NCBI GenBank assembly: GCA_947653315.1
Contig: CANTGP010000001.1
Coordinates: 1 to 30,814, forward strand
Direction of reading: 5' to 3'
Source: an uncultured Lachnospiraceae bacterium
Lineage (GTDB): Bacteria; Bacillota; Clostridia; Lachnospirales; Lachnospiraceae
DNA length: 30,814 nt
Within the stretch, counting starts at the first letter, position 1. Each line of letters opens with the position of its first letter. Below are positions 9,091 to 28,097 of this stretch, one piece after another. The notes under the pieces are model-generated. The model was not told the origin of the DNA. It was given only the letters and a program-made list of their open reading frames with translations, and searched no databases. Made by a program: the position numbers and the translations under genes.

Positions 9091-11876
9091 ATGCCGCTTT
9101 CCTCCCCCATGCCAAACAACAGCGGCGCCAGCGTCAGCATCAGCACGAATCCCGCCGGATGGCACAAATGGAAAATCCACTCCACCAGACCCGCCATGGC
9201 AAATGCCGTCAGCACGGCAACGGGCAGGGCTGCACAGGATACCCGCCTCCTCTTTTTATAATACAGGCACCCCTGTACGAACGTCGCCGCTCCCACCAGC
9301 ACGAACACGGCGCCCACCGCCAGTCCATGGTCATATGCCACCTGTAAATAAATATTGTGCGCATGGACCGCCAGCGACCCGTCAGGCAGTATGGCGCCCA
9401 TGTCGTCATGCCCGGCAAGGTTCAGTTCCTTTAAATAGGCGCGGAAGATGTCCATACGGCCATTGGCATATTCCTCGGTCTTTTCGTAAACGCTTAAATC
9501 TTCCTCCTCGGTTTCTTCTTCCTCCGCCTTTTCAAAATTGCCCTCCAAAGCGTCCTTCTCCAACTGCGCCGCCGCTTCTTCTTCCGCCGCGCGTTCTTCG
9601 TCCGTTTTCGTACCGATGATATTCAGCTTCTTATCGCCGCTTCCCACCGTACCGGTGCTTCCACCGTCACCGGTATCCTCCGCATGTCCTCCGGAGCCTT
9701 CTTCCGAAACGGCGGTTTGTCCGGAATCTCCCTGACTGCCGGACTCAGACTGCACACTGCCGTCCGCTAAGGGAACATCCTGCATCTCCTCGATATCGCC
9801 TTCCCATACCACATCGCCTTTGTTGTTAAAACGCTTCGCAAGGTATTCCCGGTACTCCGGGCTTCTTTCGTAAGAATAAGTCCCGCTTTCCGGTATGTCG
9901 AATATTTTACTGTTAAAGACTTCCGTAAACCTCCGTATGGTGATATAGTACATGGAATCCCATTCATTTCCCCGCATGACCACATCGGGAAATTCCTCCA
10001 CTTCATACCGGTACACGTTGTTGCACACGGCAGGAAGGATTCTTTGGGCGGTAAATGCAAGCGGAAAACACCATGCCACCGAAACCGCCATCAGTCCGGC
10101 AAGCACGGCGCATCCTTTCACTTTCTGTTTCCCCATGTCCGCCACCGCCAGCACTGCCACCACCGCTACCATCAGCGCCACCGCCAAAAAGCCCGTCCTC
10201 GATGCGGTAAACAGCATATACGTAGCCGCCAGTCCGAAAAACAGAAGTTCCCGCCAAAGATAAGCAAAGACAGTTTCCCCCTCCGTCCTGCGGTATTCCA
10301 AATAACGCTCTGTCAGCCGGACAAATGCGGCGCACAGAACCACCGCCATATAGACCGCCGTTACCGTCACCGTATGGAACACAAACGGATAACGGGGATA
10401 AATCCACGAAAGGAACGGTCTGCGCACAAAACAGAAAAACATGGAGCAGATAAAATGAAGCAGCAGCCCGTTACTGATATTCTGCAGCAAATGCGCCTTT
10501 TTATCCCAAAGCGCATAGCGGATATAAAACAACGAAAAAGCGGCAGCCATGGCAACCGTCCACCATCTTGTATTACGGAACAGGATTAACAGCACGAAAA
10601 ATATCCCTATGACCGCCCCATACCAAATGCGGATACGCGCCATTTTCCTCCTGCGCAGCAGTTGCAGCAGGATACTCACCACAAGAAGGCCCCCAAGGAT
10701 TACCACGGCAATCCCCCAGCGCAGAATGCGCATATCCCACTCGTCCATCGCAATCACATCCACGTAAATACTGCAGTAACGCATGGTAACGGCAGCCGCG
10801 ATTACGGCGTACAGCACCGTAAACTTATTAAAAATATCCTCTTTTTTGCACATCACAAGGGCTGCCAGCGCAAAGAATACCATAAGCTGACGTTCCGCCA
10901 CCCTGTGGTGGATGTCGTAGAGCCCGTTCATGTAATTGCAGCATGCCCATACGGCAGCCGCAAAAAACGCTGTCTGCAGATAGTCCGGCGCATTTTTCTT
11001 CCATTTCTTACCAAGCGGCACGTAACTGCCCCTGTCCCGCTTACGGTTTACCATATAAAAAAGGGTAACGGCGGCAAGCAGGATTCCCACGGTATAAAAC
11101 AGGTTATCCGTCCACTGCCCGCTGAAAAACCTCCGTATGCTCACGAGCCATAAGGCTTCCGCCGTAAATGCCGCCACCAGCACATTTGCCGTGGCGCGCA
11201 CCGCCTGTCCCACCGTTACCAGCCTGTCCTTCCCCGTCAGGCGCGTATGCAGTTCCACTGCCGCTATCAGTATCGCCATTGTGGCAAACAGTACGGCGCC
11301 GCACTGAAAGACTTTTTCCTTCCGCAGCGGAACCGAATAATAGTATTCCCCGATGATATTGTATCCTTCCAGCTCGTCGTAATTATAAATCAGGCGGCTG
11401 ACATAAGGCGTTCCCGCGCCTTCCGTTTCCTCCAACCCAAACCAAACCCTGCTGCCTTCCAAACCCTGCAGGAAATAGTAGTAATCCTTTCCCACTTCCA
11501 AATCTTCGTTCACGTAAATAGGGCAGAAACCCGGTATGTCGATAAATCTGGTATCCACCTTTTGCTCGAACATAATCTCCATATCCGAATCCAGCATACG
11601 GAAAATAAAGGAATCCACCCGTTCGTCATAAGACCAGCCGTTCCTAAAATCCGCCACATACAGGTTCACCGTCGCCAAATGGTCATACTGCGCAATAAAA
11701 CGCTGCAGCAGATAATCCTCCCCCACACTGTCCGAGGAGCCCGCAATCCTTTGGTTGCTCACCGACGGAATCGTTTCCTCCCAAAGACGCAGCGGATATA
11801 CGGTCAGCATGGCACACAGCGTCAGCAGGAAAATGACACACTGTATGGCACGGCTTTGCTTCACTACTTTATACAT
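9087..11876 (-). CDS. Wzy/O-antigen-ligase-like membrane protein with extra outer domains
   Basis: A 929-residue protein with about 14 helices. The C-terminal half carries marks of the Wzy_C/O-antigen-ligase superfamily: TASRTGFLAV at 557-566, then a long outer loop ending in HAHNIYLQVAYDHG at 838-851, where the histidine-asparagine motif is typical. Such enzymes polymerise lipid-linked repeats or pass the glycan to an acceptor. Two features are unusual: a soluble domain of about 160 residues between helix 1 and helix 2 (31-190), rich in aromatic and beta-type sequence, and a low-complexity acidic stretch within the catalytic loop (about 700-800; Gly/Ser then Glu/Ala). The ATG follows AGGTG by five bases, 51 bp after the start of the gap. 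The stop overlaps the next start as ATGA. Whether it is polymerase, ligase or protein O-oligosaccharyltransferase cannot be decided. Confidence 0.75.
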   Translation of the reverse strand: MYKVVKQSRAIQCVIFLLTLCAMLTVYPLRLWEETIPSVSNQRIAGSSDSVGEDYLLQRFIAQYDHLATVNLYVADFRNGWSYDERVDSFIFRMLDSDMEIMFEQKVDTRFIDIPGFCPIYVNEDLEVGKDYYYFLQGLEGSRVWFGLEETEGAGTPYVSRLIYNYDELEGYNIIGEYYYSVPLRKEKVFQCGAVLFATMAILIAAVELHTRLTGKDRLVTVGQAVRATANVLVAAFTAEALWLVSIRRFFSGQWTDNLFYTVGILLAAVTLFYMVNRKRDRGSYVPLGKKWKKNAPDYLQTAFFAAAVWACCNYMNGLYDIHHRVAERQLMVFFALAALVMCKKEDIFNKFTVLYAVIAAAVTMRYCSIYVDVIAMDEWDMRILRWGIAVVILGGLLVVSILLQLLRRRKMARIRIWYGAVIGIFFVLLILFRNTRWWTVAMAAAFSLFYIRYALWDKKAHLLQNISNGLLLHFICSMFFCFVRRPFLSWIYPRYPFVFHTVTVTAVYMAVVLCAAFVRLTERYLEYRRTEGETVFAYLWRELLFFGLAATYMLFTASRTGFLAVALMVAVVAVLAVADMGKQKVKGCAVLAGLMAVSVAWCFPLAFTAQRILPAVCNNVYRYEVEEFPDVVMRGNEWDSMYYITIRRFTEVFNSKIFDIPESGTYSYERSPEYREYLAKRFNNKGDVVWEGDIEEMQDVPLADGSVQSESGSQGDSGQTAVSEEGSGGHAEDTGDGGSTGTVGSGDKKLNIIGTKTDEERAAEEEAAAQLEKDALEGNFEKAEEEETEEEDLSVYEKTEEYANGRMDIFRAYLKELNLAGHDDMGAILPDGSLAVHAHNIYLQVAYDHGLAVGAVFVLVGAATFVQGCLYYKKRRRVSCAALPVAVLTAFAMAGLVEWIFHLCHPAGFVLMLTLAPLLFGMGEESGI

Positions 11877-11927: not shown

Positions 11928-13874
11928 TTATACCCCGTTTACAAGAACTGCCGCTGCCCATGGAAGCGCAAACCATAAAACCAGCACATACCTCGGCAGG
12001 TAAGTGGGTCCCAGTATCACCGTCAGCCATAAAAACCCCAGCATGGCAAAGGGAAGCAGCAGGCTGTATTTCTTCCTGTAATAAGCATACCCACACGCAA
12101 ACGCAAATACCCAGAAAAGAAAGCCCATGGAAAACAACATGGATACCACCGGAACTTTCTGCTGCGCAATTTCCAGCGACATATCCCGGTACCACCCATC
12201 CAGCCACGGAAGCAGGCTGTGCCTCTCTCCCGGCTGTTCCACCTCGTAGCCGAAGAAGGAGCTGTCTGCGTAAGTAAAAGTAAACACACTGTTGCCGCGG
12301 TATACGTCAACCACCGTATCGGGATACCAAAAACCGTAAGAAGTCATAAACCATGCGTTCAGATAAGTAAACGGATGCCTCAGCCCGATTTCCGCCCAAA
12401 GCCGTATATATTTTGAAGGTTCTGCCGTAAAGGCTTCGTTGTCAAACCATATTTTCACGCCGTCCGACACTTTCGCCGTATAATACGGAAGCGCTTCTTC
12501 CGGCAGAATCCCGTACAGGGTTTCCTTCTGTTCTTCCGTCAGGCTGTCCCCTTCATACTTCCACACCCTGGCAAGCTGCTGGATGGGTACCGTCAGCATC
12601 TCCTGGCGTCCGGCGCCCTTAGCGTCCAATGCAGCTTCCAGTCCCGTTGTCACAAGCGCATAAGCGGCAAATACCGTCCCCAGCAAAAGCGCCGTTTTCC
12701 TGCGGCAGCCCTTTGCAAACGCAAACAGCAAAACAGGCGCAAGCGCCAAAAATGCGTACATGCCGTTATGCCGGAAGCACATCATCACAAGCGCGCTGCC
12801 CGCCAGCCGCAGCAGGTTCCCCCGGCTTTTGAGAAATGTTTCCGCGTCTTTCGCAAAATCCGCCAACGCCGTCAGTAAAAGCAGCAGCGCCGCACTGAAA
12901 ATGCCGTCCTTCGCCGAACAGAGTACAAACATCACGTTCACCGGAAAAAATCCGAAATAAAAGGCGGTCACCGTGCGCAGCCACCGGCGCACGCCGGATT
13001 TCTTCATATAAGACAGTACATAAGCAAACACCGCAGCCATTCCCGCCATCTGCAGCAGGGTATATGCCGCAATTCCCGCATTATAAGAACCGGTCAGTTT
13101 ATGCACCGCCTGTATGGTTCCGCCCAGCAGCAGCACATGGGGCAGCGGATGATGGGTGGTAAACTGTCTCGTCTGCACCTGCACCAATTCTTCCTGCGCA
13201 TCATAGACAAAAAATCCCGGATACACCGCCAAAAACACCGGCAGCCAGCTAAGGAGGAAAAAGCATACCGTCGCCGCCGCCCTCTTTTTCCCGGACAGCC
13301 CGTCCCATTTTCCCACTAAAATCCGCAGGCGCGCCATCCATCCCGCATCCGCTTTTGCCATCCCTGCTTTTCCCTGCTTTTCCGCATTTCCCGGCTTTTC
13401 CGCTTCTTCTGCCGTCCCCCCACTTCCGGCCCCCGCGTCCCCGCGTCTGTCAAGAAGCATCCACCCGTAATAAATCCAAAGAAAAAACACAAGGCTCCAT
13501 GCCAAAACGGCAAACCACAGCACACCGCTTAAAAAGTCCACGCTTTCCCTGCTTTCCAACTGCACCCCAAACGCAAGACAGACGGCAAACACACACGCCG
13601 TGACGCCTGCCACCGCCATACCGTGTCCTCCGTCTCCCCCGCCTGCCTGCCGTATGCCGGTCACGGCGCGGTAACACGAAACCCAAATCATCCCGTATAC
13701 CGGCACGCCAAACCAGCTATTGCCCACCGCCAATGGGTTCCCATGCAGGTTTAACATCTGCGGCAGGGTCAGAACCGCCGCAAACGCCAACAAGCCCGAC
13801 AGTACCGGCGCAGGAATGCCGTCCCTCCCGTGTTCCTTTTTATTTATCTTTTCCGTCTTCCTGCCCATCTTCAT
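11928..13874 (-). CDS. DUF6020-like polytopic membrane protein, putative GT-C enzyme
   Basis: A 648-residue membrane protein. After an N-terminal four-helix part and a low-complexity cytoplasmic loop (about 142-178, rich in Gly, Ala, Glu, Lys), the conserved region begins with WLPVFLAVYPGFFVYDAQEE (YPG at 218-220, Asp at 225) followed by HHPLPHVLLLG at 241-251. These blocks resemble a large Firmicutes membrane family, DUF6020 to my reading, whose topology and post-helix acidic motif look GT-C-like. A large outer loop at about 425-560 precedes the last helices. The chosen ATG lies inside the end of the fusion gene, 35 bp overlap, so translation is probably coupled; its ribosome site is only moderate. 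Substrate and acceptor are unknown. Confidence 0.6.
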   Translation of the reverse strand: MKMGRKTEKINKKEHGRDGIPAPVLSGLLAFAAVLTLPQMLNLHGNPLAVGNSWFGVPVYGMIWVSCYRAVTGIRQAGGGDGGHGMAVAGVTACVFAVCLAFGVQLESRESVDFLSGVLWFAVLAWSLVFFLWIYYGWMLLDRRGDAGAGSGGTAEEAEKPGNAEKQGKAGMAKADAGWMARLRILVGKWDGLSGKKRAAATVCFFLLSWLPVFLAVYPGFFVYDAQEELVQVQTRQFTTHHPLPHVLLLGGTIQAVHKLTGSYNAGIAAYTLLQMAGMAAVFAYVLSYMKKSGVRRWLRTVTAFYFGFFPVNVMFVLCSAKDGIFSAALLLLLTALADFAKDAETFLKSRGNLLRLAGSALVMMCFRHNGMYAFLALAPVLLFAFAKGCRRKTALLLGTVFAAYALVTTGLEAALDAKGAGRQEMLTVPIQQLARVWKYEGDSLTEEQKETLYGILPEEALPYYTAKVSDGVKIWFDNEAFTAEPSKYIRLWAEIGLRHPFTYLNAWFMTSYGFWYPDTVVDVYRGNSVFTFTYADSSFFGYEVEQPGERHSLLPWLDGWYRDMSLEIAQQKVPVVSMLFSMGFLFWVFAFACGYAYYRKKYSLLLPFAMLGFLWLTVILGPTYLPRYVLVLWFALPWAAAVLVNGV

Positions 13875-15402
13875 TCACCGTTTCCCTCACTACATACTGG
13901 GGGGAACTGTTCATGGAAATGTACATCCTGCCGATGTACTCCCCCACCAGTCCAAGCATTACCATCGTCATGCCGCCCATAAACACAATCGCCGCCATTA
14001 ACGAACTGAACCCCAAAGGTACGTCGGGGTTAATAAATTTCTTAATGACCGTATAGATACCGTACAAAAACCCTGCCGCCGAACAGGTACAGCCAATGGC
14101 GGTGGCAATGCGCAGCGGCTTTACGCTGAATGCCGTAAACCCGTTAAACCAAAGCCCCAGCAGTTTCCCGAACGTATAACCGGAAGTCCCCACTTCCCGT
14201 TCCCTGTGCGTCACCGTCACGTTGCTGATACGCTTCGTCGTCCGCAGCACCAGCCCGATTACGTAAGGGAATGCGTTGGTATAGCGTTTCATTTCCTCCA
14301 CCACAAAGCGTCTTGCCGCAAAATAGCTGGACACATACAAATCCTTCGGCTTCCCCAGCATCACCTTTGCCATCTCCTCGTTTAACAGACTGCCGAAATT
14401 GCGGAACAGGGAATGTTTCTTATGCTCATACTTCGCATACACCACGTCCGAGCCCTGCTCAATACCGGCAAGCAGCTTGCCCGCTTCGTCGGCGGGCGTC
14501 TGTCCGTCGTCGTCCAGGCAGACCACGATATCACCGTCCACATAATGGAAGCCTGCCATCAGAGCGGCATGCTGCCCGAAATTCCTCGCCAGGTTAATTC
14601 CCTTAATGCGGGTATCTTCCGCCGCCAGTTTTTTTATGGTTCCGAACGTACCGTCCGGGGAACAATCGTTGACCAGCACGATTTCATAATCGTATGCCGT
14701 CCCTTCTTTCCCAAGTCTGTCCATCGTCGTCCTGATTTCCCCCACTACTTTAGGCAGCGTCAGCTCCGAGCGGTAGCAGGGAATGACGAAACTCACTTTT
14801 TTCCGTTTTTGTTCTTTTTTATCCGGTTCTTTTTTATCCGATTCTTTTTTCCGAACCATAAAAAACATGTCCTTTTTTTCGCCGTCCGAACATTCCACGG
14901 CTTCCAGCAGGGATTCCTTCACAAAACCCGCCCTTTCATAACTTCCCACCGCCGCATGGTTGTCCGTAAATACGCGCAGCACCAGTTTTTCAAGTCCAAG
15001 CTCCCCGAACGCATAATCCACGGCAAGCCTTGCCGTTTCCGTACCGTAACCCTTGCCCACCGCATCGTCCTCACCGATAAAGATGCCGTACTCCGCTTCT
15101 TTTTTGTCCCAGTCAATATCACGGAAATAAACGCTTCCCACCGGACGCAGGGCTCCGTTTTCGCACGCCGCATCTTCCGCGCCTTTTTCACATATCATGA
15201 GCTGGATCACCTTTCCGGTTTCCACCATGGTACGCATCCAGTCCTCATGCCCTTTTTGCGTAAACGTCTCCCGGTAGATAAAATGGCTCCTCACCCAATC
15301 CTTATTCCTCCAGGCCACAATATGTGCCGTATCCGCATATTCTATCTGCCGCAGCACAATCCGGTTTCCCGTTATCCTTACTTCCCGCATCCCTGTGTCC
15401 AT
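13840..15402 (-). CDS. Fusion of a GNAT N-acetyltransferase and a polyprenyl-phosphate GT2
   Basis: One uninterrupted frame of 520 residues encodes two enzymes. Residues 8-183 are a RimJ/PseH-like GNAT domain with the acetyl-CoA loop VGKGYGTETA at 115-124 and DNHAAVGSYERAGF at 147-160. Residues 184-202 are a Lys/Asp/Glu-rich linker. From 203 follows a GT2 domain with VIPCYRSE, LVNDCSPDG at 243-251, LARNFGQHAA at 271-280 and the metal motif DDDGQTP at 297-303, then two anchoring helices (about 431-455 and 465-490) and VGEYIGRMYI. The GT2 half is GtrB/ArnC-like. With RffA two genes upstream, N-acetylation of dTDP-Fuc4N and transfer to undecaprenyl phosphate is an attractive reading. PseH activity for the pseudaminic pathway is the rival. 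The start ATG has AGGGA upstream. The gene overlaps the next by 35 bp. Confidence 0.85.
   Translation of the reverse strand: MDTGMREVRITGNRIVLRQIEYADTAHIVAWRNKDWVRSHFIYRETFTQKGHEDWMRTMVETGKVIQLMICEKGAEDAACENGALRPVGSVYFRDIDWDKKEAEYGIFIGEDDAVGKGYGTETARLAVDYAFGELGLEKLVLRVFTDNHAAVGSYERAGFVKESLLEAVECSDGEKKDMFFMVRKKESDKKEPDKKEQKRKKVSFVIPCYRSELTLPKVVGEIRTTMDRLGKEGTAYDYEIVLVNDCSPDGTFGTIKKLAAEDTRIKGINLARNFGQHAALMAGFHYVDGDIVVCLDDDGQTPADEAGKLLAGIEQGSDVVYAKYEHKKHSLFRNFGSLLNEEMAKVMLGKPKDLYVSSYFAARRFVVEEMKRYTNAFPYVIGLVLRTTKRISNVTVTHREREVGTSGYTFGKLLGLWFNGFTAFSVKPLRIATAIGCTCSAAGFLYGIYTVIKKFINPDVPLGFSSLMAAIVFMGGMTMVMLGLVGEYIGRMYISMNSSPQYVVRETVNEDGQEDGKDK
14811..14850. repeat. 15-bp tandem repeat in the linker of the GNAT-GT2 fusion
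   Basis: Plus-strand GTTCTTTTTTATCCG occurs at 14811-14825 and 14826-14840, followed by a partial unit with one change. Each unit is five codons (Asp-Lys-Lys-Glu plus one more) and contains a run of six T. The array lies exactly between the two catalytic domains. Confidence 0.88.
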
Positions 15403-15427: not shown

Positions 15428-17290
15428 TTATTTCTCCGCCGGCACTGCCCGGTATACGCCGATGATGTCGCACACCGTATCCACCAGTTCCAGTTTCACC
15501 CCGGCATCCGTATCCTGTTCCGAAAAATAGTCTTCAAACCCTTCCGTCCCTTTCGCCAGTTCCGCCATCAGATATACGTTTTCCCGATGCAGCAGCGCAT
15601 CCTTCACGGAAGTAATCCCGAAGGCTTCCATCTTCTTTTGGTGGGTAGGGCTTTTCACCAGCCATCCGCCCATCAAATCATAATTCCCGAAACGGTTATC
15701 CACATCCCGAAACATTTTCTCCGCATAATACGTGGACGCATACGGCTCCAAAGGATAGGAAACCGCGGAATAAACATCCATAAAATAAAAATTCCCGCCG
15801 TGGCTTTTGCAATACGCCTTCATTCCGCCGTCCACCGTATCCGCCACAGCCCGCGCCCGGTATTCCGCATCGGTATCCGCAATACTGTTCCGGTCCGATA
15901 CCGCATTGGCAAAGACCAGCACCGACGCAGCCAAAAGGACGATACCGCCTGCAAAGCTCCTGTCGGATTTTCCCTTTCCCGTCCTCTCCTTCCCCAAAAC
16001 CTCCGCTTCGGTATGGAGCATGGCGGACAGGATCACGATTTCCATCAGGTACAGCGCATGGGTGATGCGTTCAGGGTCCCTCCCCCTTACCAAAATGAAC
16101 ATCCACAATGCCGTCCGGACGCAGAACAGGAACGCCAGTTTCCCGGCTCCTGCCGCAAACCTGCGGTATTTTTTCCTTTTCATGGCGTTTCCTGCCATCA
16201 CACCGGACACCGCCGCATAACCGGCAAGCACCGTCAAATTCCAAGGGTAGTCGTCAGGAATCCCGCTTCCCGCCGGTTCCTGATGGAAGATGCGGTAACG
16301 GTAAAGCCTTAACTTTTCCGCCAATAGGGAAAGAAATGTCTGCGCTTCCCTTTTTCTCCCCGCCTGGTATTCTATGATTTTATCCAAATCCCCGGCGGAC
16401 AATCCCTCGTCCAGCCCGAAGTTATACTGCTCCAACAGCATTGCCTGCCCGTTTTCCGTGATGCCCAGACTCCCGTAAAGTTCCTCGTTCCCCTCATAGG
16501 GCGGAATCCCCTGGAAATCATACAGCTCCGTCCGGCTGTTAAAAAATGCCGTATACTCCTTCCACCCGGGAGAAGAAAATGCCGCCGCATTGACCGCCCA
16601 TGCCGCCAGCATCCCCGCAAGGATTGCCCCGATAACCGTCAGGTATTTCGCCGCATTTTCACCGGTAAAAATCTTTGCCTCAAACGACCATCGGTACATT
16701 CCCGCCACGCAAATCAGCGGCAGCAGCAAAAGCAGCATCTCCGTCCGCAGCAAATAAGATAACACCGCCAAAAGAACGGAAGGAATACTGTTCCTTAAAA
16801 ACGCGGAATCCTTATTTTCCGGCATTTTGGGTACAAGGAACAAAAATGCCGCTGCCGCTGCCAGCATACCGCTTGTAAACGTATACTGCACGAACACCAG
16901 GTGCGGTAAGAGCAGGGCGGCTGCCACAACGCCCTCCGTCGCCGCCATTCCCGCCTTCACCCAAGGATTCCCGCCAAACCGCAGGCTCCTGTTTACCACC
17001 AGCCAAAGGCTGCCAAACTGGCAGACACAAAGGAAGATACCGTATACCGGAGCCTCCGGGAACAAACGGTACAACAGGCTGAGGGCGGCGCTGAGCGGAT
17101 ACAGGATTTGTATGTTATGTCCCTCCGGCGTCCCCGTATAAACGCCCGACAACAAATCCTTGATCGTCACGTCATCGTTCATGGCATAATAGTAGTCGTA
17201 CCGCACCCCGATAAACAAAAGCAGCAGGGCAAGAAGCACGGAAGCCAGTATTTCATTTTCCCACCGTTTCCAAAAGCCTTTAAGCCCCAT
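15428..17290 (-). CDS. Polytopic membrane protein, GT-C glycosyltransferase-like
   Basis: A 620-residue membrane protein of no family I can name with certainty. After the first helix (about 13-29) an outer-loop motif AMNDDVTIKDLL places two aspartates at 39-40, the usual spot for the GT-C catalytic or donor-binding acids, followed by GHNIQILYPLSAALSLLYR. About ten helices follow, broken by a large loop at roughly 240-335, and a soluble tail after about 475 that is probably outside. It overlaps the RffA gene by 11 bp (ATG within GGGGCTTAA) and is followed after 25 bp by the GNAT-GT2 fusion. The context suggests that it uses the amino sugar made by RffA, carried on undecaprenyl phosphate. This is inference. 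Confidence 0.62.
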   Translation of the reverse strand: MGLKGFWKRWENEILASVLLALLLLFIGVRYDYYYAMNDDVTIKDLLSGVYTGTPEGHNIQILYPLSAALSLLYRLFPEAPVYGIFLCVCQFGSLWLVVNRSLRFGGNPWVKAGMAATEGVVAAALLLPHLVFVQYTFTSGMLAAAAAFLFLVPKMPENKDSAFLRNSIPSVLLAVLSYLLRTEMLLLLLPLICVAGMYRWSFEAKIFTGENAAKYLTVIGAILAGMLAAWAVNAAAFSSPGWKEYTAFFNSRTELYDFQGIPPYEGNEELYGSLGITENGQAMLLEQYNFGLDEGLSAGDLDKIIEYQAGRKREAQTFLSLLAEKLRLYRYRIFHQEPAGSGIPDDYPWNLTVLAGYAAVSGVMAGNAMKRKKYRRFAAGAGKLAFLFCVRTALWMFILVRGRDPERITHALYLMEIVILSAMLHTEAEVLGKERTGKGKSDRSFAGGIVLLAASVLVFANAVSDRNSIADTDAEYRARAVADTVDGGMKAYCKSHGGNFYFMDVYSAVSYPLEPYASTYYAEKMFRDVDNRFGNYDLMGGWLVKSPTHQKKMEAFGITSVKDALLHRENVYLMAELAKGTEGFEDYFSEQDTDAGVKLELVDTVCDIIGVYRAVPAEK

Positions 17291-18410
17291 AAAACTCTTT
17301 TACCTTTCCGGCAATGTAATCCACTTCCCCTTCCGTCAGTTTATAAAACATGGGAAGCCGTAACAGCCGTTCGCTTTCCTTCGTGGTATAGTTATCCTCC
17401 CCGTGGAAACGCCCGAATTTCTGTCCGGCAGGCGCCGAATGCAGCGGCACGTAATGAAACACCGCCATAATCCCGTTTTCTTTCAGGAATTGAATCAAGG
17501 CCGCCCGTTCCTCCTGATCCCCGGTCTTGATATAGAACATATGGGCATTGTGGGTGCATTCCGCCGGAATAAACGGAAGCCCGATCTTTCCGCTCTCCGC
17601 CAGCGGGGTCAGAAGTTCCAGATAACGGTTCCATCTCGCCAAACGGATTCGGTTAATCTCATCCGCCAGTTCCAACTGGGCATACAGGTAAGCGGCATTC
17701 ATATCGCTGGGCAGGTAAGAGGAGCCGTAATTCATCCAGCGGTACTTGTCCACCTGTCCCCGGTAATATTTGCTCCGGTCCGTTCCCTTTTCCCGGAAAA
17801 TCTCCGCGTCCTCGATATATTTTTCCTCGCGGATTAATAACGCCCCGCCTTCTCCCATACTGTAATTTTTCGTTTCATGGAAACTGAAACAGCCGAAATC
17901 GCCGATGGTTCCCAACGCCTTCCCTTTATAAGACGCCATGACGCACTGCGCGGCATCCTCAACGACATACAGGTTATGCCGCCCTGCAATCTCCATGATT
18001 TTATCCATCTCGCAGCCCACCCCGGCATAATGCACCACCGCAATGGCTTTTGTTTTTGGGGTAACGGCATCCTCGATAAGATTCTCGTCGATGTTCATCG
18101 TATCCGGCCGGATATCCACAAAGACCGCCTTCGCTCCGCGCAGCACGAAAGCGTCCGCCGTGGAGACAAACGTATAAGAGGGCATAATGACCTCGTCGCC
18201 TTCCTTAATGTCCGCCAACAGCGCCGCCAGTTCCGTGGCGTGGGTACAGGAAGTGGTCAGCAGGCATTTCGCCGTCCCGGTTTTTTTCTCGAACCACTCG
18301 CTGCACTTTTTCGTAAATTCCCCGTCCCCGCAGATTTTCTGGTTTTCCACCGCCTGACGGATATAGTCCATTTCCTTCCCCGTAAAAGGCGGTACGTTAA
18401 AATTAATCAT
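17280..18410 (-). CDS. rffA: dTDP-4-amino-4,6-dideoxygalactose transaminase (WecE/RffA)
   Basis: This PLP enzyme of the DegT/DnrJ/EryC1 family is 376 residues long from the chosen ATG, the same length as E. coli WecE, and I recognise long stretches in common (GDGEFTKKC at 28-36, PSYTFVSTADAFVLRGA at 77-93, VHYAGVGCEMD at 126-136). WecE converts dTDP-4-keto-6-deoxyglucose to dTDP-Fuc4N with glutamate as donor. The PLP lysine is Lys181 in SFHETKNYSMGEGG. The end FGRFHGEDNYTTKESERLLRLP is also WecE-like. The ATG has GGAGG five bases upstream; the frame extends further upstream without homology. The dTDP-sugar supply genes are not in the window. It overlaps the next membrane protein by 11 bp, suggesting joint use of its product. 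Confidence 0.9.
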   Translation of the reverse strand: MINFNVPPFTGKEMDYIRQAVENQKICGDGEFTKKCSEWFEKKTGTAKCLLTTSCTHATELAALLADIKEGDEVIMPSYTFVSTADAFVLRGAKAVFVDIRPDTMNIDENLIEDAVTPKTKAIAVVHYAGVGCEMDKIMEIAGRHNLYVVEDAAQCVMASYKGKALGTIGDFGCFSFHETKNYSMGEGGALLIREEKYIEDAEIFREKGTDRSKYYRGQVDKYRWMNYGSSYLPSDMNAAYLYAQLELADEINRIRLARWNRYLELLTPLAESGKIGLPFIPAECTHNAHMFYIKTGDQEERAALIQFLKENGIMAVFHYVPLHSAPAGQKFGRFHGEDNYTTKESERLLRLPMFYKLTEGEVDYIAGKVKEFYGA

Positions 18411-18471
18411 ATGCTCCTCCATTCCGCGCTGCCGCAGCGCCCTTTTTCCGTCCCATGCACCCTTGCAGGCA

Positions 18472-20178
18472 TTACTGTCCTGCCCGGTATACCTGGTAAT
18501 TTGCGTTTTCATAGATGCAGATATAATGATGGGCTTCGATATAATCCATAATCAAATCGTTCTTCTCTCCCTCTGCCACCGGCTTTCCCGTCTCACGGTG
18601 CAGGATCACCGGCGGCTGCCGGTCCAGTTCCGTCAGCGCCTTATCCAACGCCCCGTACGTATTGCTCGGTATCTCCGGCCATGTGGTAAAAATTGCCGAA
18701 GGAACGTCCAAAATATAACTGAGCCCCGGCGCATCCCCCCATATCAGGACAGGTTCCCGCGTCACTCCGCTTTCCCTGCAGAACCCGATTAAACCGGTCA
18801 GGCTTTCCGCATTTTCCGCCGTGGTATACATTCCTGCCAATACCGGGCTGTTTTCCACCCTGGAATCCCTGGCTTCCCCGTATATCCCGTCACGGAACAC
18901 ATAGTTCAGACCGAATCCCACGCCCTGTACCAGCGTCATAAGCAAAATCAGCACGGTAAACGCCTGCCAGGGAAAATGAACGCCCCCGCGCCCCGTTTTC
19001 CGGAACAGACGGAAGCACGCCCAAACGGTATACGGCGCAACGAGGAACAGGTTATTCATATTTTGGTACGTGTAATTGTTGCTTCCTAACGGCGTAACCA
19101 AAAGAATGAGGAGCACCGTCACCGATGCCAGCCGCACCCTGTGGTCCTTGGAAAAATACCCCGCCGTCCCCATTGCGGCACATACCGCCGTTACAATCAG
19201 GAACAGCATCATCCACTGGAACACGCATCCTTCGTTATAATAACGCAGGGAAAACATACCCTGCCCCCAGTAAAAACGCAGCAGCACCAAAATACCGGCG
19301 CAGTAAAGTATTTTTTTGCCCTTTTCATACTTTCCTTTTTCCACCAAAAACATAATGGTTCCCGCTGCCGCGCAGGGAATCATGTAAACCATCCATCTCA
19401 GTCCCGCCGCATAGGCGCTTGCCGTCGCCGAAACCATTCCCCACAGCGTATAATCGGAGGCTTCCTCCGTCATGCCAAACAGGCTGCCCACCATGGCGGC
19501 GAAAGCGCCCGTCCCGTATTTTGCCGTAATCAACAAAAGAACGCCGCCAAAGCCCGCCAAATACCCGGCAAGGCAAAGCCCCGTCCGCTTCACCGTCACA
19601 GCTATTTTCCCCCGTTCCAGCCATCCGGCAAACCATACCGCCAAAATCAGCGCCGCTTCCGTCAGGTTGGAAAAACGCACCGTCACGTTCAGCCCAAGGC
19701 AGACGCCCGCCAGCACATAGCAAACATTTTTTCCCGTAAACAGCGCCCTGCCAAGCAGCAGACTCCCCGCCGCAAACAGGAAATAGGTCAGGTAATTATA
19801 CAAGATGGTGGTAGGGCACCAACAAAGCGCCAGCGCCGTAAGCTCCCCCGTAAAAGCCATCCATGACGGCATCCACCGCACCAGCGCCACATAACAAAGC
19901 AAGGCGGTCGCCGACACCAAAAGCCCGGTATAAACATTCATGCCAAGCAGCGTATCCCCCATGGGCAGCTTCATCAGAAAAGCCCCTGCCACATTCGCAA
20001 GGTAAGTGGCAAGTACCCATGTGATGTCCATTTCTTCCATAAAACGGTAATACCCGAGGGAATAAGTCGTATCCGTAACGTCAATGCCCTGGTTGGCCAA
20101 AAGCAGCGGGAATACCAATAGCACCAGCGGAAACACCACCCTGGTTAACCGGTTTTCTGTTTCTTTTTGTAACCGCAT
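18472..20178 (-). CDS. Polytopic membrane protein, GT-C glycosyltransferase-like
   Basis: I do not recognise a named family. The 568-residue protein has a positively charged N terminus, a first helix at about 13-30, then an outer loop with acidic residues (GIDVTDTTYSLGYYRFM, 32-48), then about ten more helices, and a soluble C-terminal part of roughly 130 residues after about 435. An acidic motif in the first outer loop plus many helices and an external C-terminal domain is the general plan of GT-C enzymes, which use polyprenyl-phosphate sugars outside the cell. The ATG has GGGAGG seven bases upstream. It is followed 61 bp later by the RffA-like aminotransferase. Function as a glycosyltransferase is inferred from topology and neighbours. 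Confidence 0.62.
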   Translation of the reverse strand: MRLQKETENRLTRVVFPLVLLVFPLLLANQGIDVTDTTYSLGYYRFMEEMDITWVLATYLANVAGAFLMKLPMGDTLLGMNVYTGLLVSATALLCYVALVRWMPSWMAFTGELTALALCWCPTTILYNYLTYFLFAAGSLLLGRALFTGKNVCYVLAGVCLGLNVTVRFSNLTEAALILAVWFAGWLERGKIAVTVKRTGLCLAGYLAGFGGVLLLITAKYGTGAFAAMVGSLFGMTEEASDYTLWGMVSATASAYAAGLRWMVYMIPCAAAGTIMFLVEKGKYEKGKKILYCAGILVLLRFYWGQGMFSLRYYNEGCVFQWMMLFLIVTAVCAAMGTAGYFSKDHRVRLASVTVLLILLVTPLGSNNYTYQNMNNLFLVAPYTVWACFRLFRKTGRGGVHFPWQAFTVLILLMTLVQGVGFGLNYVFRDGIYGEARDSRVENSPVLAGMYTTAENAESLTGLIGFCRESGVTREPVLIWGDAPGLSYILDVPSAIFTTWPEIPSNTYGALDKALTELDRQPPVILHRETGKPVAEGEKNDLIMDYIEAHHYICIYENANYQVYRAGQ

Positions 20179-21495: not shown

Positions 21496-21936
21496 CTATG
21501 CTTCTTTCTTCCGAAACACCCATAGTTTGCTGAAAATATAATTGGAAACAATCACTACCACGTTACACACAAACTTGGAAATCATATCGTCGATGTTTGC
21601 GAGGTCCACCATCAGGTACATAATCACAAGCTCCATCAAACCCGTCACAATCCGTGCCCCCACAAACGAGGCAAATTCCTTCCAAACCCCTGCCTTACCG
21701 GTGATTTTGCTTTTAAACACAAACGTGCGGTTCGTCCAGTAAGCAAACAGCACGGACACAATCCATGCAAAGGAGGTGGAAACCAACACCAATACCACGT
21801 TCTCGTTATTTGCGCCCAGCACCCACGCGGCGCCCGCATACGCCACCATATTGACCACAAACGCCAGGAACCCGAAAAACAGATAATTCACTGCTTCCTC
21901 GTACTTCTTATACATATTTATTGCAAACTTTATCAT
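21496..21936 (-). CDS. GtrA-family membrane protein
   Basis: A 146-residue protein with four predicted membrane helices: YLFFGFLAFVVNMVAYAGAAW, a second in VVLVLVSTSFAWIVSVLFAYW, then a loop with TNRTFVFKSK, and two more ending in FSKLWVFRKKEA. This pattern, especially NRTFVF after helix two and the KLWVF end, is typical of GtrA. GtrA proteins are thought to help move polyprenyl-phosphate sugars to the outer face so that a membrane glycosyltransferase can use them. The window contains two GtrB-like GT2 proteins and several GT-C-like proteins that could be partners. The ATG chosen has AAGGAG six bases upstream; an earlier in-frame start nine codons up lacks such a site. It lies 57 bp after the ABC gene. 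Confidence 0.87.
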   Translation of the reverse strand: MIKFAINMYKKYEEAVNYLFFGFLAFVVNMVAYAGAAWVLGANNENVVLVLVSTSFAWIVSVLFAYWTNRTFVFKSKITGKAGVWKEFASFVGARIVTGLMELVIMYLMVDLANIDDMISKFVCNVVVIVSNYIFSKLWVFRKKEA

Positions 21937-21942
21937 AGGATT

Positions 21943-21948
21943 CTCCTT
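21943..21948 (-). promoter_or_regulatory. Ribosome binding site that fixes the GtrA start
   Basis: The minus-strand hexamer AAGGAG ends six bases before the ATG at 21936. It selects this start over the in-frame codon at 21963. Confidence 0.75.
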
Positions 21949-21993
21949 ATTTTGGAAATACAAATACGTTTCTGGAAACGGCTTCTTCGTTTC

Positions 21994-23810: not shown

Positions 23811-24728
23811 CTAACACTTCGGGCGCGGAAATGCAATCTCTGCATTCATCACCGTGCCATACTCCCTGCGCCTTCCCTCCGAACAGTAAAAGCGTTTGGC
23901 GTCTTCGCTGACAAATTCCTCCCCCATTTCTTCCCGCTTGGAATACCCCGGATGAAACAGGATTTCCAGCGTCCTTCCCCGTTCCGCGCTCTGTTTTTTC
24001 ATGGCGGGGAACAGTTTGGATACCCGTTTTTCATCCATATTGCCGCTAAGCAGCACCCCCCACAGGAACATGGGTTTCTGCCCCGTCACTTTCCTTACGC
24101 GGCGCTCCATCACAGGCGAAAGGATATTGAGCAGCAAATTTTTCACCCAATTCACCGGACGGTATGTTTTCCAAAGGGATGCTTCCCGGATAAACGGCAG
24201 GATGGGTTCTTTCGTCACGCGGATATAAGATACCCGGTATCCCTCCTCCCGTATGGCTTCCAAAAGCGCACGGTATACAATGGGAATCATCTGCGTATGC
24301 TGGTGTCCGTCAAAACGCAGGGGTTGTTCCCCGCCAAAATATGTTAAGAAAGCGGCGGTCTGCGCCTTAATCTCCGCTTTCAGTCCCTTTTTGGCTTTGG
24401 CGTACTTCCACGGACAGAAACTCCAAAGGAGCAGTTTTCCCCAGCTTAGGTTAAAATACCCCCGTCCGTCCACCAGTCCGGCGACCTCCCCGCGCGCCGC
24501 CAGTGCCCTGCCTTCCATAAAGTTCAGGTGCACCGTAAGCAGGGGATCCTTCTTCCATGCCCCGGACTTCCTTTCTTCCGCATAAAGGCCCGCATAGAAT
24601 CCGTAACACGACATATTGGTGAGCACACTGATACTGTCCAGCCTGCCCGCACGGATACAGGTTAAAATATCCTCCGACGCTCCTGCCGACAGGGCATAAT
24701 CGTCCGCATGTATGTCCATCGCTTTCAA
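23811..24728 (-). CDS. YdjC/ChbG-family carbohydrate deacetylase (NaxD-like candidate)
   Basis: YdjC-family enzymes are metal-dependent deacetylases of N-acetylated sugars. The N-terminal metal motif MDIHADDYALS is present (HADD at residues 7-10), followed by TVHLNFMEG, FDGHQHTQMIP and a late ILFHPGYS block that supplies further metal-binding and catalytic histidines. The length of about 305 residues is normal and there is no signal peptide, so it acts in the cytoplasm or on its membrane face. The start proposed is a TTG overlapping the upstream stop as TTGA, eight bases after AAGGAG; an ATG nine bases later is also possible. Tight coupling to a GT2 that loads undecaprenyl phosphate recalls NaxD of Francisella, which deacetylates undecaprenyl-phosphate GalNAc. 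The same substrate class is inferred here, not shown. Confidence 0.82.
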   Translation of the reverse strand: MKAMDIHADDYALSAGASEDILTCIRAGRLDSISVLTNMSCYGFYAGLYAEERKSGAWKKDPLLTVHLNFMEGRALAARGEVAGLVDGRGYFNLSWGKLLLWSFCPWKYAKAKKGLKAEIKAQTAAFLTYFGGEQPLRFDGHQHTQMIPIVYRALLEAIREEGYRVSYIRVTKEPILPFIREASLWKTYRPVNWVKNLLLNILSPVMERRVRKVTGQKPMFLWGVLLSGNMDEKRVSKLFPAMKKQSAERGRTLEILFHPGYSKREEMGEEFVSEDAKRFYCSEGRRREYGTVMNAEIAFPRPKC

Positions 24729-25693
24729 TCTTCCGTCTCCTTCCAAATCATGGCTTCAATAATATAGCGCGGCCGCGCTTTCGTTTCCATATATATTTTC
24801 CCCACGTATTCCCCCACCACCCCGAGGGAAAAAATAGTCAGTCCGCCCGTCAGAAGCGATACCACCAAAGTCGTGGTATAACCCGGCACGTTTTTCCCGG
24901 TCAGCCAGTCCGCCAGACAAATTAAAATCATCACGATACTGAATACGCTGACCAAAAAGCCCAGTACGGTAATCATACGTAAGGGACGGGTACTCATGGA
25001 CGTAATGCCGTCCATTGCCAGTGTCACCATCTTCTTAAACGTATACTTGGAATGCCCCGCTTCCCTCTTTTTCACGTCAAAGTATACCACATCCGAAGGA
25101 AATCCCATGGTGGGAATCAGTCCCCGCAAAAACAGGTTGACTTCCTTATATTCCGTCAGCGCTTCCAGCGCGGCTTTGGATAACAGCCGATAATCCGCAT
25201 GGTTCTCCATCACATTGCAGCCAAGCATCCCCATCAGCTTATAAAAAGAAGTCGCGGACAGCTTTTTGAAAAATCCGTCCGAATCCCGGTTATTGCGGAT
25301 ACCGTAAACGATTTCACAACCGTTTTGGTAACATTCCAAAAAACGGTCCAGCGCTTCGATGTCCTGCTGTAAGTCCGCATCGATGGTCACCGCCATGTCC
25401 GCGTGTTTCGCCGCTTCCAACATGCCTGACAGAATCGCGCTTTGGTGCCCGTAGTTCCTGGAAAAGCAAATCCCCGAAAAAAAGGCGTCTTCCCTGCACA
25501 AACCGGAAATAATGTTCCATGTACGGTCTTTGCTTCCGTCATTTACAAACATAATTTTACTTTTCGGGGAGATTTTCCCCTCCCGTACCAAGCGTCCCAT
25601 TTTTTCCCGCATCACCCGTGCCGCATGTTCCAGCACGTCTTCCTCGTTATAGCACGGAACGACCAAATATAATATGTTTCCTCTGTCACCCAT
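24725..25693 (-). CDS. Polyprenyl-phosphate glycosyltransferase (GT2, GtrB/ArnC/DPM1-like)
   Basis: This 322-residue enzyme likely moves a sugar from a nucleotide donor to undecaprenyl phosphate on the cytoplasmic face. The GT2 domain has VPCYNEE at residues 12-18, VNDGSKD at about 50-56, SRNYGHQSAI at 78-87 and the metal-binding DADLQQD at 105-111. Two C-terminal hydrophobic helices (about 239-264 and 275-300) anchor it, followed by VGEYVGKIYMETKARPRY, the standard ending of GtrB/YfdH-type enzymes. The start is an ATG 63 bp after the preceding stop, with a weak ribosome site. Its stop overlaps the start of the following YdjC-family deacetylase, which points to a joint pathway. The sugar cannot be read from sequence; by analogy with FlmF2 of Francisella an N-acetylhexosamine is plausible. 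Confidence 0.88.
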   Translation of the reverse strand: MGDRGNILYLVVPCYNEEDVLEHAARVMREKMGRLVREGKISPKSKIMFVNDGSKDRTWNIISGLCREDAFFSGICFSRNYGHQSAILSGMLEAAKHADMAVTIDADLQQDIEALDRFLECYQNGCEIVYGIRNNRDSDGFFKKLSATSFYKLMGMLGCNVMENHADYRLLSKAALEALTEYKEVNLFLRGLIPTMGFPSDVVYFDVKKREAGHSKYTFKKMVTLAMDGITSMSTRPLRMITVLGFLVSVFSIVMILICLADWLTGKNVPGYTTTLVVSLLTGGLTIFSLGVVGEYVGKIYMETKARPRYIIEAMIWKETED

Positions 25694-25756: not shown

Positions 25757-26830
25757 CTAAATCAGTTCATTCTGCCGGTGCATCTCAGGCGCTTCATACC
25801 GATCCATAAAATCCTCCCCGAGATAAACGATTTCCTCCGCAAACCGGATGGCATGGACCACCGTAAATACCGATATGACCCGCCGGAACCGTAAATCCGG
25901 GATATAATTAAGCACCTCCATGGGAAATTTCCCGTCCAGCACAATATTTTCCGGGAACACTTTCCGGTAATCCAGCACATCCCTTGGATGGGGTTTGATT
26001 AAAACCACGGATTCCTCCCCGTCTATCCTGCCATACTGCTCGATACAGTCGCGGAAAATCCGCTCCCTGACATCCAGCGCGCACAGCGGTTCCGTCAACA
26101 GCAGGATTTTGTTCTTTCCGCCCCTTTCCAGCTTTTTTTGGATTTCTTCCATATCGGCAATAAACAGGTTTACCAGGATATCCTTCCCTTTCCGGTCCAG
26201 CGCTTCCGTCAGTTCCTTTCTGGGTTTCTCGATATATTTCGGACAGGGATACGGAAGCACCGACAGGTCGTTGACCTCCATGTCCACACAATACTTCGCC
26301 CATCCGTTTTGGATGAAAATCAGGTTTAAGGATGCCAAAAAGGCTTTCAGCTTAAAATGCCCCCGGTTGTCATACCGGGCCGTATCGTAAGTGCTGATGC
26401 AGTCCAAACCGTCCTCCAGCGCATGGTACCGGATTTTCTTATAGCTCAAATAATAACCGATGGGGTCGGAATCGCAGAAAACATAAATGTCCTTATACTG
26501 TTTAAAATCCACCGGGACATAAGGCTGCTGCATTTTTCCCAGCAATTTCGTATATTTCATCCTCGCCAGCATATTCAGGAGCAGGTTCTCCCTGTCGGCG
26601 TGGTATTTCATCACTTCCGGGAAATTCACGTCTTCCTTTTCCTCAAACATATAGACGGCTTCAAACAATCCGCAGGCTTCGGCGCGGCTTTTCAAATCGC
26701 CGAAATCGTTGGACATGGTGCTTAAGACCAGCGAAGCGTTTCCCCTGTCCTTTTCCGGAAGGTTCAGTTCTTTTAAACATGCCACATATACATGGTAGTA
26801 GGTGTGGCAGACGTAGATTCTATCCTTCAT
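25757..26830 (-). CDS. Sialyltransferase-like glycosyltransferase (GT52/polysialyltransferase type), candidate pseudaminyl transferase
   Basis: This protein of 357 residues begins with a typical strand and loop, IYVCHTYYHVYVACL, also seen at the start of GT52 and related bacterial sialyltransferases. It carries both hallmark motifs of bacterial sialyltransferases in families GT38, GT52 and GT80: the acidic motif EDG at residues 139-141 and the HP motif in KPHPRD at 279-284, followed by a serine/threonine patch in VISVFTVVH. These enzymes use CMP-linked nonulosonic acids, and CMP-pseudaminic acid is the donor made by the genes just upstream, so a pseudaminyl transferase is the natural inference. 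No signal peptide or membrane segment is visible, so it should act in the cytoplasm. The start chosen is the ATG after GAGGAG; an ATG four codons earlier (26842) is possible. Either overlaps the ATP-grasp gene. Confidence 0.78.
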   Translation of the reverse strand: MKDRIYVCHTYYHVYVACLKELNLPEKDRGNASLVLSTMSNDFGDLKSRAEACGLFEAVYMFEEKEDVNFPEVMKYHADRENLLLNMLARMKYTKLLGKMQQPYVPVDFKQYKDIYVFCDSDPIGYYLSYKKIRYHALEDGLDCISTYDTARYDNRGHFKLKAFLASLNLIFIQNGWAKYCVDMEVNDLSVLPYPCPKYIEKPRKELTEALDRKGKDILVNLFIADMEEIQKKLERGGKNKILLLTEPLCALDVRERIFRDCIEQYGRIDGEESVVLIKPHPRDVLDYRKVFPENIVLDGKFPMEVLNYIPDLRFRRVISVFTVVHAIRFAEEIVYLGEDFMDRYEAPEMHRQNELI

Positions 26831-28097
26831 GTCTCTCCTCATTTTCTCCGCCTTCCCATTCCACCGTCAAAAACCCCATCGCCTTTTCCCCGGCTTCCAT
26901 GGCTTCTTCCGGGGTATCCGCACTGGTAATGATATATCCCAAACGGTCATTGCTGGATTTGGTTCCGTGTACTTCGTCCCCCTCCTTTTTATCAATGACC
27001 ACGTCCTCAATCCCTTTTACTTTCCAAATTTCCCCGTCCACGGAAATCCTGCGGATGATACCTTCCTTTGCCGGAAGGAAGTGAATGGCTGCCGCTTTGC
27101 TCCATTTCGGACGGATATCCGCTTCCGCGCCCGTGGCAAGCGCCACGGAAGCGCCTACCATATCCACTCCCGTGGACAGCGGCACCAGCCTGGACGTAAT
27201 GAAATCGCCCCCTAACCGCGCCGCCAGTTCCACCACCTTGGGACCCTCCGGCGTCACTTTAATCTCCGTATGGGAAGGACCGTTTCTAAGCCCCACCGCC
27301 TGCACCGCCTGCAGGGCAACCTGCCGGATGCGCTGCTGTACGTCCTCATCCAAGCGACTCGGCTCACAGTGGGCAAGCTCCACAAAATACGGGGGCGGCG
27401 TAATATATTTATCGGTAATGGCAATAATCCGCGTTTTTCCTTCCACGGTCATCGCTTCCACACTGACCTCCGGTCCCCGCATAAATTCCTCTACCATCAC
27501 CGTTCCGTTCCTGGAATGGGATTTGCTGTATACGTAGATTTCCTTTAATTCTTTTATGTCCCCTGATTCTTTATCTTCTTTACGTTCCCCTTGATCTTCC
27601 GCCCCTGCCCGTTTCCCGTTTTCCATCAGCACCACGCCGCGGCTTCCCGCATTGTCCGCAGGCTTCACGATACAGTTTCCGCAGAATTTGCCGACGGCTT
27701 CCTTAAATTCCCCAAAATCCGATACGGCATAATATTCCGGTATGGGTACCTGCCGCTCCCGCAGCCGGTTCCGCATATGGCTTTTGACGGTAGCGCACAG
27801 GGAATCCGCATAAGACAGATCCGGCTGTTTCCCCAGCTTTTCATTCACGTACGCCGCCGTCCGCACCGGACCGTCGCTGGTGGATGTCATCACCACATCG
27901 GGCTTATGGATTAACGCCTGACGGTACACTTCCTCCTGGTCCAGCGTACTGACCACCAGCTTTACGTCCGCTAACGGAAAGCCGACCGCATGTTCGTCAT
28001 AATCCACGAGAATGATTTCATAACCCATTTCCTTCGCTTTTTTTATCGCCGGTACCTGTAAAGCGCTGGCGCCAAGCATCATTAATTTCTTCTTCAT
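26820..28097 (-). CDS. ATP-grasp ligase next to the pse genes
   Basis: A 425-residue ATP-grasp protein of the CarB/PylC-like type. An N-terminal Rossmann-like domain starts with LMMLGASALQVPAI at residues 5-18. The ATP-grasp core shows IVKPADNAGSRGV at 143-155, VEEFMRGPEVSVE at 202-214, and the metal-binding end HTEIKV...VVELAARLGGD at 276-298. Such enzymes activate a carboxylate as acyl phosphate and ligate it to an amine. Residues about 161-188 form a highly charged insert (Lys, Glu, Asp, Gly) between core strands, unlike the second ATP-grasp gene of this window. The open frame extends 54 codons further upstream, into pseI, but the conserved fold begins at the ATG used here. The gene ends inside the next one. 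The substrate is unknown; attachment of an amino acid or other acyl group to the nonulosonic acid or its amino-sugar precursor is an inference. Confidence 0.8.
   Translation of the reverse strand: MKKKLMMLGASALQVPAIKKAKEMGYEIILVDYDEHAVGFPLADVKLVVSTLDQEEVYRQALIHKPDVVMTSTSDGPVRTAAYVNEKLGKQPDLSYADSLCATVKSHMRNRLRERQVPIPEYYAVSDFGEFKEAVGKFCGNCIVKPADNAGSRGVVLMENGKRAGAEDQGERKEDKESGDIKELKEIYVYSKSHSRNGTVMVEEFMRGPEVSVEAMTVEGKTRIIAITDKYITPPPYFVELAHCEPSRLDEDVQQRIRQVALQAVQAVGLRNGPSHTEIKVTPEGPKVVELAARLGGDFITSRLVPLSTGVDMVGASVALATGAEADIRPKWSKAAAIHFLPAKEGIIRRISVDGEIWKVKGIEDVVIDKKEGDEVHGTKSSNDRLGYIITSADTPEEAMEAGEKAMGFLTVEWEGGENEERHEG

Follow-up and report, generated by a model that had tools for sequence, protein, structure and literature searches.

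A GtrB/ArnC-like GT2 and a YdjC-family deacetylase, encoded by overlapping genes of an uncultured Lachnospiraceae bacterium, form a conserved two-gene cassette. The two enzymes probably act in sequence, GT2 and then YdjC, on a route to a polyprenyl-phosphate hexosamine with a free amine, which would be flipped and then transferred outside by a GT-C-type enzyme. The window, i.e. the whole stretch of 30,814 nucleotides that was analysed, corresponds to contig C1; the draft genome to which it belongs has 3.24 Mb in 508 contigs and is 81% complete. Its closest named relatives being Lachnospiraceae, the bacterium is treated here as a Gram-positive member of that family. All genes called in the window using a simple longest-ORF script lie on the minus strand. 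The following features are referred to below:

24725–25693, minus strand: GT2, GtrB/ArnC-like polyprenyl-phosphate sugar synthase (predicted HexNAc); PF00535, GtrB 5ekp match, two C-terminal helices
23811–24728, minus strand: YdjC-family N-deacetylase, 305 aa, predicted soluble and cytoplasmic; PF04794, motifs
24725–24728, minus strand: overlap of the YdjC start TTG (24728–24726) and the GT2 stop TGA (24727–24725), read from the sequence
25757–26842, minus strand: GT52/polysialyltransferase-like glycosyltransferase, upstream border of the pair; PF07922 54.7 bits, PF07388 23.5 bits
21994–23754, minus strand: PglK/MsbA-like ABC transporter, downstream border of the pair; PF00005, PF00664, PglK 343.7 bits (below the cut-off of 1000)
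21496–21963, minus strand: GtrA-family membrane protein, possible flippase; PF04138 67.9 bits
18472–20178, minus strand: glycosyltransferase of GT-C fold, by conservation the partner of the second GT2
13840–15402: second GT2, ArnC-like, fused to a GNAT acetyltransferase
17280–18512: WecE, 630 bits (cut-off 375)

The GT2 and YdjC proteins

The GT2 frame is unbroken and encodes 322 aa from an ATG start (PF00535, 61 bits in Pfam). The protein was matched near full-length to GtrB sll0501 (PDB 5ekp; E 3.5e-53, GT2 residues 8–314 on GtrB residues 28–328) and also to the ArnC structure 9hwj (E 1.1e-34), and its homology to GtrB/ArnC-type polyprenyl-phosphate GT2s spans both the catalytic and the membrane parts. 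Two C-terminal membrane helices are predicted; in the two main GT2 clusters (76 members), 71 proteins have two helices and 5 have one. The NCBIfam equivalog cut-offs for ArnC (141.8 bits vs 529) and PgfS (230.6 bits vs 500) were missed, and the model of the polyprenyl-P-GalNAc synthase PpgS was matched weakly (22.9 bits, cut-off 370). The GtrB with a solved structure uses UDP-glucose as donor, and the assignment of HexNAc to the window GT2 therefore rests on its deacetylase partner.

The overlap of the two genes and the intact HADD and DGHQH motifs given in the preliminary description were confirmed in the sequence: the genes share 2 nt on the minus strand, both frames are intact, and VHLN is present as well. 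YdjC belongs to the PF04794 superfamily (121.4 bits, cut-off 29.7) and has no predicted membrane helix. Its likelier start is the TTG at 24728–24726, which has GGAGA 5' of it and two bases in common with the GT2 stop TGA; the start given earlier, 24746, corresponds to the frame's first TTG. A public protein cluster (P0001) is likewise 305 aa long and is annotated merely as ChbG/HpnK family deacetylase. Across the window and the best 80 of 176 relatives, an HADD-type motif and D(G/S/A)HQH were found in 81/81 YdjC loci and the VH motif in 80/81. We take ADD, VH and DxHxH to be the metal and catalytic motifs.

By score, the closest named family is HpnK (TIGR03473; 57.4 bits, cut-off 232.6, across YdjC residues 10–275) and not ChbG (NF002559; 44.3 bits, cut-off 227, limited to residues 12–169), both lying far under their cut-offs. 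A closest relationship to ChbG, which had been named as speaking against the earlier reading, is thus absent by family score. YdjC and one HpnK sequence have a central helical stretch and SGxMD in common, and the short ChbG layout differs. In a tree of 61 of the 125 available rows (quick search, SH-aLRT support only; duplicate loci L034, L035, L041 and L043 were left out of tree sampling), the window-type YdjCs form a separate clade. The nearest solved folds among the matches listed are EF3048, ChbG and CmCBDA, i.e. ChbG-like enzymes of free oligosaccharides, with no HpnK or NaxD structure among them. Pfam scanning of 23 window proteins detected no radical SAM or hopanoid family that would indicate hpnI/hpnJ neighbours, and no PTS or chitobiose hydrolase family as in the E. 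coli chb operon.

Linkage, partner changes and site of the pair

The adjacency seen in the window is conserved in Lachnospiraceae, as counted from both the YdjC and the GT2 side. A lack of linkage in related genomes, the other result named beforehand as counting against the earlier reading, did not appear. For the YdjC side, loci were collected with the YdjC profile alone, and the best 80 of 176 relatives plus the window gave 81 loci, a set that leans to close kin and whose genes were also called with the longest-ORF script. In this set (best 80 of 176 relatives plus the window), a GT2 of this kind lies directly upstream on the same strand (-1) in 50/81 loci and at -2, with one gene between, in 26/81, while the positions -5 (four genes between) and +1 occur in 1/81 each. 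No such GT2 was found in the remaining 3/81 loci (L074, L108 and L076); the contigs of L074 and L108 start 33 and 364 bases before YdjC, and L076 is a true absence in a 20.9-kb locus.

On the GT2 side, which covered 250 family genomes, all seven matches of at least 409 bits have a YdjC in the same contig cluster, five of them directly adjacent, one with a 97-aa ORF between (G107) and one 5.5 kb off (G100). Sister GT2 loci (334–401 bits) were also fetched (n=18), and YdjC was present on the fetched stretch in 0/17 of those with a callable GT2; in another sister, L046, a YdjC lies at a distance of 3.1 kb. In the family sample, a GtrB-like GT2 of more than 300 bits was found within 1.5 kb of 6/13 window-type YdjCs vs 0/16 other YdjCs, two of which have weak GT2 matches (21–23 bits). 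Three of the seven window-type YdjCs that lack such a GT2 within 1.5 kb have one at 2.6–5.5 kb. The pairing of GT2 and YdjC is not by chance.

At E 1e-15, the window YdjC type was detected in 3/398 phylum genomes, two of which belong to the window's family, including its own genome. A Firmicutes-wide system was ruled out by this count, and the YdjC type is a family-level feature. A plasmid DNA search with the GT2-YdjC pair as query gave no match. The pair was also seen in a Treponema draft genome (L078), in reversed order with a GtrA-like gene, YdjC and then GT2; horizontal transfer would explain this, or else an error of binning.

A GT2 tree was built from 54 of 106 GT2 rows and two outgroup rows (quick search, SH-aLRT support only). 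Its main clade (support 83) comprises 29 rows, 27 of them YdjC-linked, one near and one unlinked (L129). A distant clade of seven rows, with 32–37% identity to the window GT2 where a figure was given, has five linked and two near rows. Between these two linked clades lies the sister group, unlinked in 16/17 rows with L046 as the exception. The linked GT2 of L082 joins an unlinked GT2 from the window's own genome. Six changes of the linked label are needed on this tree vs a shuffled mean of 18.0, and 0/500 shuffles were as low. On the YdjC tree, with partner type split at 400 bits (35/61 rows scored, L046 left out), GT2 partner type needs at least four changes among the 35 scored rows.

In the window, L048 and L049, the pair is flanked by the GT52 gene on one side and the ABC gene on the other. 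The same GT52 and ABC genes adjoin in the pair-less relatives L156, L157 and L165, with gaps of 99, 27 and 50 bases, and are separated by one other gene in pair-less L162. Since the pair is present or absent together and YdjC is kept while the GT2 type changes, consecutive steps are the best explanation for the two enzymes.

Neighbouring genes and candidate outside transferases

The genes 5' of the pair comprise pseudaminic acid genes (PseG-like, PseF, PseI), an ATP-grasp ligase and the GT52/polysialyltransferase-like enzyme, and those 3' of it the PglK/MsbA-like ABC transporter, GtrA, an acyltransferase, the GT-C, WecE, more membrane proteins and the GNAT-GT2 fusion. PseI (485.7 bits), PseF (270.3 bits) and WecE are all above cut-off; the PseB-like and PseG-like proteins are below. 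A TviB-like UDP-GlcNAc 6-dehydrogenase at 1701–3014 (499.6 bits, cut-off 592) would, judging from its sequence, add an acidic sugar to the locus alongside the pseudaminate genes. The 929-aa protein encoded at 9087–11876 has about 13 predicted transmembrane helices and an extended, charged stretch of low complexity; it matched no Pfam or NCBIfam family and may be a polymerase or ligase of the locus. An Rfam scan of the window gave no match.

GT2, GtrA-like and GT-C kinds are all present in the window, and the GT-C seemed at first to be the third part of the pair's route. Conservation ties it to the second GT2 instead: an ortholog of the GT2 at 13840–15402 lies less than 10 kb away in 17/27 cases, and the GT-C is near YdjC in 1/27 genomes, the window itself (250 family genomes; tables counted by eye). 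The GT-C at 18472–20178 was therefore ruled out as partner of the pair. GtrA-like genes were found by profile search in 7/81 YdjC loci (window, L048, L049, L067, L127, L078 and L084; best 80 of 176 relatives), in L078 and L084 as immediate neighbours of the pair, and also in 2/13 second-route loci without YdjC (L157, L161). With the window GtrA itself as query the count was 4/81 YdjC loci (best 80 of 176 relatives plus the window). Because the GT-C belongs to the other GT2 and the GT2 served by GtrA is ambiguous, the window alone demonstrates no complete route.

WecE, the GT-C and the GNAT-ArnC-like GT2 fusion make up a second lipid-carrier sugar route in the window. GNAT and GT2 domains occur together in 117/120 homologs among the matches listed, and GNAT is a separate gene (171–192 aa) in 9/13 fetched family loci of this route. 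A YdjC of any type is present in 12/27 genomes with the second-route GT-C vs 20/223 others (Fisher p 1.2e-5, kinship ignored).

The pair occurs in differing loci, which were divided into type A (n=44) and type B (n=37, including the window) within the 81-locus set of the best 80 of 176 relatives plus the window. Of the type-A loci, 38 carry a gene for a TuaD-like dehydrogenase and 37 an epimerase-family gene, and DUF6056, FkbH-like, ACP and MBOAT genes are frequent in type B. In 23 of the 26 one-gene-between loci of this set (best 80 of 176 plus the window), the intervening gene codes for 537–600 aa. A LIC_10190-like protein (representative 289 bits, NCBIfam cut-off 100) is encoded within three genes in 23/44 type-A loci, and none of three tested GT-C-like families was found nearby in 20/44 type-A and 9/37 type-B loci (best 80 of 176). 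The window itself holds no LIC_10190 or DUF6056 gene, and one strong member of either family is encoded elsewhere in its own genome, on other contigs. The best candidate transferases in the relatives are DUF6056 proteins and the LIC_10190-family proteins whose genes separate GT2 from YdjC. LIC_10190 and DUF6056 matched none of the solved structures, a profile comparison of GT-C with DUF6056 was likewise negative (probability 0.5%), and a GT-C role for either is therefore proposed from their size, number of helices and place in the loci.

Nucleotide-sugar dehydrogenase or pseudaminate genes were present in 38/44 type-A and 10/37 type-B loci, window included (best 80 of 176), the dehydrogenase representatives being TuaD-like and TviB-like. 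Epimerase genes were kept out of this count of acidic loci because their representative had its best score, below cut-off, as a dTDP-glucose dehydratase.

Other gene sets were observed in these loci and in the window's own genome. Contig C75 of that genome (L172, 1562–10276) carries genes for DUF6056 and GtrA-family proteins beside a WecG/TagA-type glycosyltransferase, FliD and FliW, a layout suggestive of a DUF6056 transferase that glycosylates flagellin. Eisenbergiella-type type-B loci (e.g. L053, L059) have FkbH-like (18 loci), ACP (12 loci) and MBOAT acyltransferase genes, all of them 3' of the pair; FkbH and ACP occur together in nine loci, in six of them with MBOAT as well (best 80 of 176), and the set suggests outside transfer of a small acyl group bound to ACP. 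DltD-like (representative 26.6 bits, cut-off 22.7) and MBOAT-type genes lie on the opposite strand immediately 3' of YdjC in most type-A loci (e.g. L077, L087).

Proposed route, alternatives and known systems

The gene anatomy, the families and motifs, the predicted YdjC fold, the linkage, the partner changes and the occurrence of the pair as a unit at one site are direct observations. From these, the lipid-carrier amino-sugar reading, in which sugar, lipid and acceptor are predicted, is the best one. The GT2 would join UDP-HexNAc and polyprenyl phosphate to polyprenyl-P-HexNAc at the inner membrane face, and soluble YdjC would remove the acetyl group at the cytoplasmic face, leaving polyprenyl-P-HexN with a positively charged free amine. 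This product would be flipped across the membrane, and a membrane enzyme of GT-C type would then pass its hexosamine on to a surface glycan outside. For such chemistry there are precedents in FlmK with its C55-P-GalN, HpnI/HpnK, HexSDF and GpgSDF. What was put forward in the preliminary description is supported by the polyprenyl-phosphate type of the GT2, by a YdjC that is predicted to be soluble, keeps its motifs and forms a clade apart, and by the linkage; the window GT-C belongs by conservation to another GT2.

The pair could instead make a cationic membrane glycolipid as its end product, with a GT2 acceptor other than polyprenyl phosphate and no outside transfer. Three published systems of a glycosyltransferase and a deacetylase end in a free-amine membrane lipid, according to the available parts of their papers; in addition, YdjC is nearer to HpnK than to ChbG, and many loci are without a tested GT-C-like neighbour. 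We nevertheless consider this unlikely, as the GT2 is of GtrB/ArnC type, whereas the same partial sources describe GpgS as GT4 and HexS as annotated monogalactosyldiacylglycerol synthase, and as the pair lies amid glycan genes, with a large polytopic membrane protein between GT2 and YdjC in 23/44 type-A loci (best 80 of 176). Slightly less probable still is an action of YdjC on some other glycan intermediate (a nucleotide sugar, an Und-PP repeat unit or a nonulosonic acid), with adjacency reflecting a shared locus only. The window locus does make N-acetylated sugars, with PseI, PseF and WecE over cut-off, but Pse genes (clusters 42 and 46) occur in 6/81 loci and a linked GT2 in 78/81 (best 80 of 176 plus the window), and the pair is found in loci of different make-up. 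That YdjC is a ChbG-type chitooligosaccharide deacetylase, working on free or phosphorylated oligosaccharides beside an unrelated GT2, is very improbable despite its nearest solved folds. A ChbG function was dropped on the low score, the partial match, the clade of its own and the lack of PTS or chitobiose hydrolase families among the 23 window proteins scanned; moreover, none of the 16 YdjCs of other types in the family sample has a GtrB-like GT2 over 300 bits within 1.5 kb.

Under the preferred lipid-carrier amino-sugar reading, the cassette might further be a plug-in that makes acidic surface polysaccharides of gut Lachnospiraceae zwitterionic, LIC_10190 and DUF6056 proteins being the outside transferases that attach the free-amine hexosamine from polyprenyl phosphate; this is a speculative extension, which we hold with considerable doubt. 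Many host loci look acidic by gene content, and a free amine would therefore give both charges on one polymer. Zwitterionic capsules have been studied for their T-cell effects (PMC2742891, available part). If the proposal is true, Gram-positive gut commensals own a dedicated, movable route for free amino sugars at the cell surface, a modification described until now chiefly for lipid A, as a means against cationic peptides. A YdjC clade whose annotation goes no further than ChbG/HpnK family deacetylase would then have a named substrate, and sugar transfer would be a role that can be tested for the proteins LIC_10190 and DUF6056. Zwitterionic glycans would also be expected on the surface of Eisenbergiella and other gut Lachnospiraceae.

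NaxD of Francisella belongs to the YdjC family. According to the available parts of two papers, FlmK of Francisella novicida uses C55-P-galactosamine (PMC6581854), and NaxD is needed for galactosamine on lipid A (PMC4448142). FlmF2/NaxD/FlmK likewise combines an ArnC-like GT2, a deacetylase and an outside transferase, a likeness drawn from the description of these proteins. Its acceptor is lipid A, which the Gram-positive pair cannot use, and its third partner is FlmK, as opposed to the conserved LIC_10190 or DUF6056 in the window's relatives. In HpnI/HpnK, a lipid-linked GlcNAc is made by a glycosyltransferase and then treated by a deacetylase of the YdjC superfamily (PMC12583986, available part). 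The central segment and SGxMD are the likeness of the HpnK sequence to the window YdjC, and the hpnIJK gene order is present in L149; the glycosyltransferase is different, however, no hopanoid family was found among the window proteins scanned and YdjC is under the HpnK cut-off.

A GT2 of CsbB/GtrB type makes a C55-P-sugar that a polytopic glycosyltransferase uses outside in CsbB/GtcA/YfhO and GtrABC (PMC7389260, PMC11127046, parts available). The sugar in these three-component systems is GlcNAc, galactose or glucose and, in the parts available, no deacetylation step is described, whereas the window pair has a deacetylase. We know of no YdjC in the mycobacterial route that places galactosamine on arabinogalactan. 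This Rv3779 route (PMC7502851) resembles the proposal, as far as the available part describes it, in putting a free amino hexosamine on the wall glycan of a bacterium without lipid A. A further parallel is the polyprenyl-P-GalNAc synthase model PpgS of NCBIfam, although its match to the window GT2 is weak.

A search of open papers did not find a GtrB-type GT2 and YdjC cassette in Gram-positives, its partner changes or the link to LIC_10190 and DUF6056. HexSDF of C. difficile (PMC10128005) and GpgSDF of P. aeruginosa (PMC12713373) each consist of a synthase, a deacetylase and a flippase leading to a free-amine lipid, as described in the accessible parts of these sources. There, the deacetylases are a polysaccharide deacetylase and a COG3233 protein, not YdjC, the synthases are MGDG-synthase-like and GT4, and the products are diradylglycerol or phosphatidylglycerol glycolipids. 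HexSDF is accordingly a Gram-positive precedent with enzyme families other than those of the window pair. On the published parts consulted, the lipid-carrier amino-sugar idea is already known from Gram-negatives, and HexSDF is its Gram-positive analogue.
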